Assembly (NCBI GenBank): GCA_943328505.2
Contig: CALQAH020000003.1
Location: forward strand, 27,600 to 91,599
DNA length: 64,000 bases
Reading direction: 5' to 3'
Source of the DNA: Rhizobium sp. Q54
GTDB lineage: Bacteria; Bacteroidota; Bacteroidia; Flavobacteriales; Flavobacteriaceae
Below are positions 3,322 through 46,103 of the stretch, one piece after another. Made by a program: the position numbers and the translations under genes. Each line of letters opens with the position of its first letter. The first letter of the stretch is position 1. The notes beneath the pieces were generated by a model. The model had not been told where the DNA came from and ran no database searches. It saw only the letters and a program-made list of their open reading frames with translations.

Positions 3322-3732
3322 ATGGGAGTTCGTAAAAGAGAAACAGCAGATGCAAGAAAAGAGGCCAATAAGTCTCTTGCCTTCGCAAAATTGAATAACT
3401 GCCCTACTTCACCTAGAAAAATGCGCTTAGTAGCGGACTTGGTAAGAGGTCAGAAAGTGGAAAGAGCACTAAATATTTTAAGATTTAGTTCTAAAGAAGC
3501 TTCTAGAAAATTAGAGAAATTGGTTTTATCTGTTATTGCCAACTGGCAAGCAAAAAACCCAGACGCTAATATGGAAGAAGCTCAACTATTTGTTAAAGAG
3601 ATCCGTGTAGATGGTGGAATGATGTTAAAAAGACTTCGTCCAGCTCCACAAGGAAGAGCACACAGAATAAGAAAACGTTCTAATCACGTTACAATCGTAT
3701 TAGGACAATTAGATAACACACAAGCAAATTAA
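3322..3732 (+). CDS. rplV: 50S ribosomal protein L22
   Basis: [26 protein letters not shown]; order. Confidence 0.98.
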
Positions 3733-3737
3733 TTAAG

Positions 3738-4499
3738 ATGGGACAAAAGACAAATCCAATAGGAAACAGACTTGGTATCATCAGAGGATGGGATTCAAAC
3801 TGGTATGGTGGAAATGATTATGGTGATAAAATCGCTGAAGATTATAAAATCAGAAAGTATATCCATGCTCGTTTATCAAAAGCTAGTGTATCAAAAGTAA
3901 TTATCGAGAGAACTTTGAAACTTGTAACCGTTACTATCACTACTGCTAGACCTGGTATTATTATCGGAAAAGGTGGCCAAGAGGTAGACAAGTTGAAAGA
4001 AGAACTTAAGAAAGTTACTGACAAAGAGGTTCAAATTAACATCTTTGAAATCAAAAGACCTGAATTAGATGCTTATCTAGTTGCGACTAGCATCTGTCGT
4101 CAAATTGAAAGTCGTATTTCTTACAGAAGAGCGATTAAAATGGCTATTGCTGCTGCAATTCGTATGAATGCAGAAGGAATTAAAGTTTTAATTTCTGGTC
4201 GTTTGAATGGCGCTGAAATGGCACGTTCAGAAGGTTTCAAAGAAGGTAGAGTTCCTCTATCAACTTTCAGAGCAGACATTGATTATGCACTTGCTGAAGC
4301 ACATACTACTTATGGTAGAATGGGTATCAAAGTGTGGATCATGAAAGGTGAAGTTTATGGAAAGAGAGATCTTTCTCCACTTGTAGGTATGGATAAAAAA
4401 CAATCCGGTACTGGTGGTGGTAAAGGTGGCGATTCTCCTAGAGGAGACAGAAAGCCTTTTAATAAAGATAGAAAACCAGACGCTCGTAAGAGAAAGTAA
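3738..4499 (+). CDS. rpsC: 30S ribosomal protein S3
   Basis: [27 protein letters not shown] motif GIIIGKGG. Confidence 0.98.
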
Positions 4500-5430: not shown

Positions 5431-5799
5431 ATGGTACAACAAGAGTCAAGATTAAAAGTAGCAGATAACACAGGAGCTAAAGAAGTTTTAACTATCCGTG
5501 TTTTAGGAGGTACCAAAAGAAGGTATGCCTCTGTTGGTGACAAAATTGTAGTTTCTATTAAAGATACTGCTCCTAACGGAAGCGTTAAAAAAGGAGCTGT
5601 TTCAACTGCAGTTGTGGTACGTACCAAAAAAGAAGTGAGAAGAGCCGACGGTTCTTATATCCGTTTCGATGACAATGCATGTGTTCTTTTGAATGCTGAA
5701 GGAGAGATGAGAGGAACTCGTGTTTTTGGTCCAGTAGCAAGAGAACTTCGTGAAAAACAATTCATGAAGATTGTATCATTAGCACCAGAGGTGCTTTAA
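5431..5799 (+). CDS. rplN: 50S ribosomal protein L14
   Basis: [40 protein letters not shown]. Confidence 0.98.
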
Positions 5800-5811
5800 T
5801 TAGTTAGTAAG

Positions 5812-42429: not shown

Positions 42430-43512
42430 ATGAGTAAGGCTGACACGAATGATTTAGAAATTTCAAGATTTGAACTTCACAAAGTAGCGGATTTTTTACC
42501 TTACCCCTTTATTATAGCGGAAGTTATAGATGGGATACATTACAATACCTATTTGAATGAAAAATTTCTTTTAGAAATTGGCTATACTCTCGAAGAAATC
42601 CCAACTATTGAAAAGTGGTATGAGCACGCCTATCCCGATCAATTTAACAGGGATAGAGTTATAAGTGCGTGGGAGCAAGAACAAATTAAATCTCAAAATC
42701 AAGGTAAAGTTTTTGTTAAAAACAAATCGCAAGTAGTTTGTAAAAATGGGACTAAGCGCTGGTATGAAATAAAGGCTTCCGTTATTGATAAAATTCATGT
42801 GGTTGCTTTTGTCGATTTGGATAAAGAGATTATTTTGCAGGAAGAATTGAAAAGCATCAATCAAAATAATGACAGAATGCTTTCTGTTTTAGGTCACGAT
42901 TTGCGTAGTCCAATCGCTAATTTAACTTCCATTTCCGAAATGGCTTTGGGCAATGAAATTTCACAAAGTGAATTTGTCAATTTTATTCACTTGATAAATA
43001 ATCAGTCCAATCAAGTTTTAGAGATGTTGGAAACAACGCTAAATTGGGCCAAATTAAATTTCAATAGCTTACAGCAAAACGATATAAATATTGATGTTAA
43101 AACTTTAATTACAACTATTTTGGAGCTATATGAAACTGCATATAAATCCAAAGGAATTATTGTAAATATTGATGTAGACCATTCAAATACAATACATTCG
43201 GATATAGAAATTGTTACAGTTATTGTTAGAAATATTATTTCAAACGCTATTAAATTTACTCCACAAAATGGGATGATTACTATTAAACTCATTCAAAACC
43301 AGTTAACTATTATTGATAATGGAATTGGAATGACAGAAGCGATGATTAATGCTATTTGGAATAGTAATTACGCATCAAGAAGAGGTACTGATAACGAAAT
43401 TGGGATGGGAATGGGAATGCAATTGGTCTTAAGTTTATCCAGAAAAATTAAGGCTGCAATAACAATCCAAAGCGAACTTTCAAAAGGGACTTCTATAGTT
43501 TTGATTTTCTAA
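42430..43512 (+). CDS. PAS-domain sensor histidine kinase (orphan)
   Basis: H-box VLGHDLRSPIANL; N-box NIISNAIKFTP; IIDNGIGM. Confidence 0.92.
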   Translation: MSKADTNDLEISRFELHKVADFLPYPFIIAEVIDGIHYNTYLNEKFLLEIGYTLEEIPTIEKWYEHAYPDQFNRDRVISAWEQEQIKSQNQGKVFVKNKSQVVCKNGTKRWYEIKASVIDKIHVVAFVDLDKEIILQEELKSINQNNDRMLSVLGHDLRSPIANLTSISEMALGNEISQSEFVNFIHLINNQSNQVLEMLETTLNWAKLNFNSLQQNDINIDVKTLITTILELYETAYKSKGIIVNIDVDHSNTIHSDIEIVTVIVRNIISNAIKFTPQNGMITIKLIQNQLTIIDNGIGMTEAMINAIWNSNYASRRGTDNEIGMGMGMQLVLSLSRKIKAAITIQSELSKGTSIVLIF

Positions 43513-44339
43513 AACCAAAAATTAGTTTCTAGCTTTAACAGATAAATATCAGTTTTCATTACCTCATTATCATTATCTTCACAAAGCAGAAATTCCATTT
43601 GAGTTGCTGTTTTTTTATGCAATGTCAGCCCTTCAAATTTATTTGTGTCTGAAATTTTTTCAGTAAAATCAACTGCCATTGTTTGGAGGTTCATCCTTCC
43701 AATAAGGCTTCCCAATATTTCGCCATCATCATAGGTTGAGAGAGTGTCTTCGGCAGCAGCTAGGAAAAATATTTTGTCTTCAACCAAAATGGCGTCGGTA
43801 AAAGTGGCTGCTACTCCTTTAAGTTTTGGAAGTGTAATTAATTTAAATTGAACCGTTTTACTTTTGTTATCATAGCAAAAAACACCATTTTGTGCGTTTG
43901 CACCATTGCCTCGTTGAAAGAAATAGGTTAGTTCCTCAGTACTAATTACGCCTTCTATGTTTAGTTCATCAGCAGCAATTGAAATAGTATCTGCAAGTCT
44001 CTTGTAAATTCTAGTTAGATTTTTTTCTTTTACTTCCTTGTTTTCTAGATTATAAGTAACTCGCGTGTTTCTTATTTTGCTTGATCCCGAACCAAATAGG
44101 TAGAGTTTGTTATCGAATAAGGTTAGGGCTTCAAAATCGGCTTTGTCTTTTTTGGGACTAATTTCTGGACGGTTTTCAAAGAGCTTTATCTTTTCGAGTG
44201 ACTTTTCAGTTATTCTATATTGATAAAGGAAGTTGCTATTATCCGACACTATAAATAGAGAATTGTCTAGATAAACTATTCCTGATGCGGCACCAATTCC
44301 TTCGATGGTTATGAAAGGCAAAAGTTGAATTTTTTCCAT
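43509..44339 (-). CDS. Conserved hypothetical, probable beta-propeller-like protein
   Basis: 276 aa; GAASGIVYLDNSLFIVSDNSNFLYQYRI...NKFEGLTLHKK; ends overlap the kinase by 4 nt. Confidence 0.6.
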   Translation of the reverse strand: MEKIQLLPFITIEGIGAASGIVYLDNSLFIVSDNSNFLYQYRITEKSLEKIKLFENRPEISPKKDKADFEALTLFDNKLYLFGSGSSKIRNTRVTYNLENKEVKEKNLTRIYKRLADTISIAADELNIEGVISTEELTYFFQRGNGANAQNGVFCYDNKSKTVQFKLITLPKLKGVAATFTDAILVEDKIFFLAAAEDTLSTYDDGEILGSLIGRMNLQTMAVDFTEKISDTNKFEGLTLHKKTATQMEFLLCEDNDNEVMKTDIYLLKLETNFWF

Positions 44340-44366: not shown

Positions 44367-44632
44367 ATGAAAAGCATAAACCCAGATGATTTTAAAGTAG
44401 TAAATTCCATTTCATTGTCCAAATTGCCAACCGATTTAAAAAATGGTGCCGATGATGATAAAAAAGAAGAGAAGTTGGATGAGGTACAAGAGAAGCTAAG
44501 CAAGCTGCACGTTATATAGTAGCGAAAATTATTTGGGAAGAAATGCAAAAACACACGGATATTAAAGAACCTGAGTTGGATGAAAAAGTGAAGAAAGATA
44601 TTGAGCTATATAAAAATTATTTGAGAGGATAA
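44367..44632 (+). pseudogene. Polyphosphate kinase 2 (PPK2) remnant: N- and C-termini only, frame-shifted
   Basis: Frame A from ATG 44367: MKSINPDDFKVVNSISLSKLPTDLKN...EEKLDEVQEKLSKL then stop; frame B 44507-44632: ARYIVAKIIWEEMQKHTDIKEPELDEKVKKDIELYKNYLRG*. Confidence 0.82.
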
Positions 44633-44670
44633 AGAATAGATAAGTCAATTTGTTCTATTTGATATTAATT

Positions 44671-44702
44671 TTTGCCATTGCCATTGCCATCAGCTATCTT
44701 TG
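44671..44702 (+). promoter_or_regulatory. Candidate promoter for MATE gene (TTTG-N20-TATCTTTG)
   Basis: TTTG 44671-44674; TATCTTTG 44695-44702. Confidence 0.6.
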
Positions 44703-44720
44703 TGCTTTATAAAAAATAAA

Positions 44721-46103
44721 GTGAAACTATCTCAATATACAAAAGAGTTCTCCTATAATATTAAACTGGCTTATCCAGTAATCCTTGGTATGCTTGGTCA
44801 TACCTTGATTGGTATAGTCGATAATTTTATGGTTGGAAATCTCGGTTCAACAGAGTTGGCAGCCGTCTCTTTAGGGAATAGTTTTATATTTATTGGAATG
44901 TCAATTGGAATTGGTTTTTCAACCGCTATTACGCCTTTAATCGCAGAAGCCGATGCAGAAAAAGACGATAAAAAAATCCGTACCACATTTCATCACGGCT
45001 TGTTGCTGAGTACTATTTTAGGCATTGCCATTTTTATGTTGATTGTTTTGGCAAAGCCAATAATGCTTTTAATGAATCAACCCGCAGCAGTTGTTGATTT
45101 GGCGGCACCGTATATTGACTGGGTTGCTTTTTCTTTAATACCGGTGATTATTTTTCAAGGCTATAAACAATTTGCCGATGGATTGTCAGAGACTAAATAC
45201 TCGATGTATGCTATTTATTTGGCGAATGTAGTTCACATATTTTTTAACTATGTTTTGATTTACGGAATTTGGTTTTTCCCAAAGTTAGGAATCATAGGAG
45301 CCGCATTGGGGACAGTGATCTCAAGAATTATGATGGTGGTTTTTTTACATTATTTATTGAGTCGAAATGAAAAATTTAAACACTATTTTAATAATTTTAG
45401 TTTTCAAGAAATTAAAAAATCTATTTTAAAAAAAATCATCAATCTAGGATTGCCTTCGGCTATGCAAATGTTGTTTGAAGTAACCCTTTTTACTGCGGCA
45501 ATTTGGCTTTCGGGTTCCATAAGTAAAAACAGTCAAGCGGGCAATCAAATTGCATTAACGTTAGCAACTACTACTTTTATGTTTGCTATGGGATTGAATG
45601 TAACAGCAATGATTCGAGTGGGTAATCAAAAGGGAATTAATGATTTTAAAAATCTTATAGTAGTTGCGCGATCTATATTTTTATTAGCGATTGTTTTTGA
45701 AACTTTTTTTGCGCTTTTATTTGTCGTTTTTCATAATTATTTGCCTCATTTATTTTTAAACATGACCGATGCAAGTCAAACTATTGACAATGCAGAAATA
45801 ATAGCGATAACTTCTAAACTATTATTAGTTGCAGCGGTTTTTCAAATTTCTGATGGTATTCAAGTGGTTGTACTTGGTGCCTTGCGTGGCCTACAAGATG
45901 TAAAAATTCCCATGTATATTACTTTTGTTGCCTATTGGTTAATTGGATTTCCAATATCGTATTATCTTGGAAAATACACTTCTCTTGAGGCAACAGGTAT
46001 ATGGATTGGCCTTTTAGCTGGATTGTCTGCAGCCGCATTATTTTTATACATTCGTTTTCATAATTTGACAAAAAAGTTATTGCATGAAAATAAACAAGAA
46101 TAA
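44721..46103 (+). CDS. MATE family efflux transporter (GTG start at 44721 preferred)
   Basis: YPVILGMLGHTLIGIVDNFMVGNLGSTELAAVSLGNS; 12-TM pattern. Confidence 0.92.
   Translation: MKLSQYTKEFSYNIKLAYPVILGMLGHTLIGIVDNFMVGNLGSTELAAVSLGNSFIFIGMSIGIGFSTAITPLIAEADAEKDDKKIRTTFHHGLLLSTILGIAIFMLIVLAKPIMLLMNQPAAVVDLAAPYIDWVAFSLIPVIIFQGYKQFADGLSETKYSMYAIYLANVVHIFFNYVLIYGIWFFPKLGIIGAALGTVISRIMMVVFLHYLLSRNEKFKHYFNNFSFQEIKKSILKKIINLGLPSAMQMLFEVTLFTAAIWLSGSISKNSQAGNQIALTLATTTFMFAMGLNVTAMIRVGNQKGINDFKNLIVVARSIFLLAIVFETFFALLFVVFHNYLPHLFLNMTDASQTIDNAEIIAITSKLLLVAAVFQISDGIQVVVLGALRGLQDVKIPMYITFVAYWLIGFPISYYLGKYTSLEATGIWIGLLAGLSAAALFLYIRFHNLTKKLLHENKQE

Follow-up and report, generated by a model that had tools for sequence, protein, structure and literature searches.

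Intact ppk2, the gene for a PPK2-type polyphosphate kinase, is present at one syntenic position in many Flavobacterium. The closest intact copy, as judged by its DUF6929 neighbour, is that of F. paronense (locus L084), which encodes 291 aa in 876 nt including the stop codon. Its product passes the TIGR03709 (PPK2_rel_1) model with 323 bits against a cut-off of 247, its best PDB match is 6an9, and a Pfam scan places PF03976 at residues 29-265. In intact relatives, the Walker A motif reads GMDTSGKDS. Between ppk2 and a gene for a MATE efflux transporter, many of these relatives (L084, L089, L093, and others) also carry an outer-membrane-barrel-like gene on the opposite strand, so labelled from sequence appearance rather than by a family search. 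In the window, meaning the whole 64,000-nt stretch of DNA analysed here, the same chromosomal place adjoins a divergent DUF6929 gene and then the MATE gene, as in F. paronense and others, but what lies there is a relic of ppk2. The outer-membrane-barrel-like gene is absent, with no detectable remnant at 44633-44722. The features of the locus are as follows.

43509-44339, minus strand: DUF6929 gene, the divergent gene next to ppk2 in relatives (PF22000, E 8e-77, and synteny)
44367-44632, plus strand: ppk2 relic, 266 nt
44367-44507, plus strand: ppk2 5' remnant, codons 1-47, the N-terminal lead-in, ending before the Walker A region (ungapped alignment to intact relatives)
44507-44632, plus strand: ppk2 3' remnant, codons 251-291 and TAA stop, in a frame that differs from that of the 5' remnant (alignment to intact relatives)
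44507-44509, plus strand: putative deletion junction, a 3-bp GCA that would fit both breakpoints (comparison with intact genes)
44367-44519, plus strand: 50-residue open frame produced by the fusion, 47 PPK2 residues and HVI, then TAG (translation)
44700-46103, plus strand: MATE efflux transporter gene, next downstream (TIGR00797, E 1e-86; PF01554)

The initial annotation had read the frame that opens at ATG 44367 as a PPK2 N-terminus running into a stop, and a second, different frame as the PPK2 C-terminus; both readings hold. Translated from ATG 44367 to the TAG at 44517-44519, the first frame gives MKSINPDDFKVVNSISLSKLPTDLKNGADDDKKEEKLDEVQEKLSKLHVI, and from 44507 to the TAA at 44630-44632 the second gives ARYIVAKIIWEEMQKHTDIKEPELDEKVKKDIELYKNYLRG, 41 residues whose end is flush with the normal PPK2 C-terminus when aligned to intact genes. 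The original reading frame is thus destroyed by the TAG and by the placement of the two pieces in unlike frames. Against F. paronense PPK2, the first piece covers residues 1-46/47 (29/46 identical) and the second residues 251-291 (32/41 identical), both ungapped, and against the PPK2 of L103 they are identical at 35/47 and 31/40 positions. Across 13 intact Flavobacterium PPK2 proteins including that of F. paronense, the 5' remnant matches residues 1-46/47 ungapped at 63-74% identity. The 3' remnant aligns comparably to the other 12, and it is 75% identical to F. paronense residues 248-291. When the F. paronense protein was searched against the whole genome to which the window belongs, its two matches (E 9e-12 and 1.5e-13) fell only at the relic, which excludes a chance match. 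The pieces are therefore collinear on a single intact homologue of the same syntenic gene, residues 1-47 followed by 251-291, the outcome that had been proposed as a check on their common origin. Aligned to intact genes, the relic has lost residues 48-250 and with them the catalytic core, Walker A included; the roughly 200 aa previously estimated to be missing amount to 203 codons. Neither piece, scanned alone against Pfam and NCBIfam, gives PF03976 above its cut-off, as expected for a family that in the intact protein spans just residues 29-265. An SRI family match in the same scan (E 0.013) was below the SRI cut-off and was discarded.

The difference between the F. paronense gene (876 nt) and the relic (266 nt) is 610 nt, which is the length of the deletion if no further indel has occurred. 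As 610 is 1 mod 3, and so not a multiple of three, it accounts for the clash between the frames of the two pieces that had already been pointed out. The junction sequence is CTGCACGT. On the 5' breakpoint side, relatives have CTG CAR, with the Gln codon (CAR) next after codon 47, and on the 3' side several relatives have ATG GCA CGT. With the ancestral bases taken from these relatives, the GCA at 44507-44509 would suit both sides, giving approximately 3 bp of homology. We rejected recombination of long direct repeats, since the breakpoints have only these ~3 bp in common. The junction points instead to an illegitimate short-homology deletion, although ~3 bp is weak evidence that chance could also provide. 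We conclude that an ancestral class III PPK2 gene, encoding a polyphosphate:nucleotide phosphotransferase, stood between the DUF6929 and MATE genes, and that some 610 internal bases were lost, presumably in a single event, between two sites with ~3 bp in common. Codon 47 is thereby joined out of frame to codon 251, and the product ends at 50 residues without the whole catalytic domain.

The deletion had also been described as recent, with both ends well preserved. Mean amino-acid identity to intact relatives is 0.69 for the N-terminal and 0.75 for the C-terminal piece of the relic, compared with 0.64 and 0.74 for the corresponding parts of the intact F. paronense protein, and changes at third codon positions predominate in both the relic ends and the intact gene. 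Since the retained ends are conserved like those of an intact gene, the loss looks recent, as far as a short sequence with saturated synonymous sites can suggest.

Could the deletion have arisen in the computer? The assembly is a draft in 87 contigs, and a real, intact ppk2 might have been collapsed or misjoined by the assembler, or the contig wrongly binned. We regard such an artefact as very improbable. The ~3 bp common to the breakpoints is far below the overlap that assemblers usually use, and the junction lies inside a long contig (the window spans C3:27600-91599), where the sequence to either side of it is conserved. Furthermore, similar yet different ppk2 relics occur in unrelated assemblies, including that of Flavobacterium sp. 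RSP15. To the view that the fusion instead created a new short gene, whose 50-residue peptide (or a C-terminal one of 41 residues) is functional and kept by selection, we give virtually no credence: both pieces are still open and well conserved, but such conservation is what one expects of a gene lost not long ago, the pieces are in unlike frames, the C-terminal piece does not begin with its own start codon, and a functional short peptide was rejected when no match extended across the fused ends in any other genome, among the matches listed for 397 genomes of the genus. We are highly confident that the relic is a ppk2 pseudogene made by an out-of-frame internal deletion.

A search for ppk1 or ppk2 elsewhere in the genome, suggested in the initial annotation, turned up an intact ppk1 and no match to PF03976 anywhere in the assembly, which is 97% complete. 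It is possible that a second, intact ppk2 lies in an assembly gap, which would mean two copies of which one was deleted. The remaining polyphosphate genes found in this genome (G000) are the following pair.

Contig C52, 1100-4142 (L120): ppk1 (705 aa) and ppx (296 aa), whole and adjacent

Because both genes are intact and adjacent, polyphosphate synthesis via PPK1 is probably retained, and the polyphosphate of the cell would now come from PPK1 alone.

Other Flavobacterium have lost ppk2 at the same locus. In Flavobacterium sp. RSP15 (L090, approximately 3707-3827, minus strand), residues 1-16 and ~37-69 are left upstream of the DUF6929 gene. In L088 (~3857-3973), probably the same genome as G212, and in G343 (L118, ~5683-5800), approximately residues 4-43 persist with stops and without an ATG. 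No ppk2 remnant was detectable before the MATE gene in L086 and L087, and in L085 other genes occupy the ppk2 position. The L088 and G343 relics represent a common older ppk2 remnant of about 40 N-terminal codons. When intact and lost ppk2 are mapped, with corrected labels, onto a DUF6929 protein tree, 5 changes are required; setting aside L041, which has PPK2 elsewhere in its genome, brings this to 4. This is the tree of a single gene with several weak branches. For the count, L047 was scored as intact, its gene being truncated where the locus ends, and three loci were left out: L045 and L095, which have too little flanking sequence, and L105, which belongs to another genus. A single clade of the window with L085-L088 and G343 was disfavoured (p-AU 0.011), the group having been picked after inspection of the tree. 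These data indicate that loss at the locus proceeded by different events in L090, L088, G343, L086/L087, and L085, with at least 4 changes on the DUF6929 tree.

PPK2 (PF03976) is found in 314 of 397 genomes of the genus, and in 288/332 of those of good quality. We listed 20 genomes that lack it, and 63 other lacking genomes lie outside that set. Eleven of the listed genomes reach 90% completeness or more with contamination no higher than 5%, and 9 of these 11 are ~2.5 Mb or less; among good PPK2-bearing genomes, only 4/288 are that small. That PPK2-lacking genomes are mostly small is indicative only, as it concerns the genomes listed and ignores kinship. We tentatively suggest, as an idea somewhat short of probable, that small-genome Flavobacterium retaining ppk1 have been losing ppk2 from a single locus time and again, in independent events, the retention of ppk1 being taken from the window's own genome. 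If true, this would imply that these bacteria share either relaxed selection on PPK2-type nucleotide regeneration or selection against it, as part of a small-genome lifestyle. Among the titles and abstract openings covered by a literature search, none dealt with the loss of ppk2 in Flavobacterium.

The relic is an ordinary, textbook pseudogene, one stage of recurrent ppk2 loss, and no new system. Its value is as a clean snapshot of gene death through one internal deletion, and together with the other remnants at the locus it forms a graded series of ppk2 loss. For annotation, labelling either short frame a polyphosphate kinase would be wrong. Class III PPK2 (TIGR03709; 6AN9/6AU0, the latter labelled PPK3 Class III) has ends like both ends of the relic, a likeness drawn through its syntenic Flavobacterium members. 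In contrast to those enzymes, the relic is without residues 48-250, which make up nearly all of PF03976, and consequently cannot be an enzyme. The decayed loci L090, L088/G212, and G343 resemble the window in that pieces of ppk2 alone are left beside DUF6929. However, the breakpoints differ, and among these loci both ends of ppk2 survive in the window alone.
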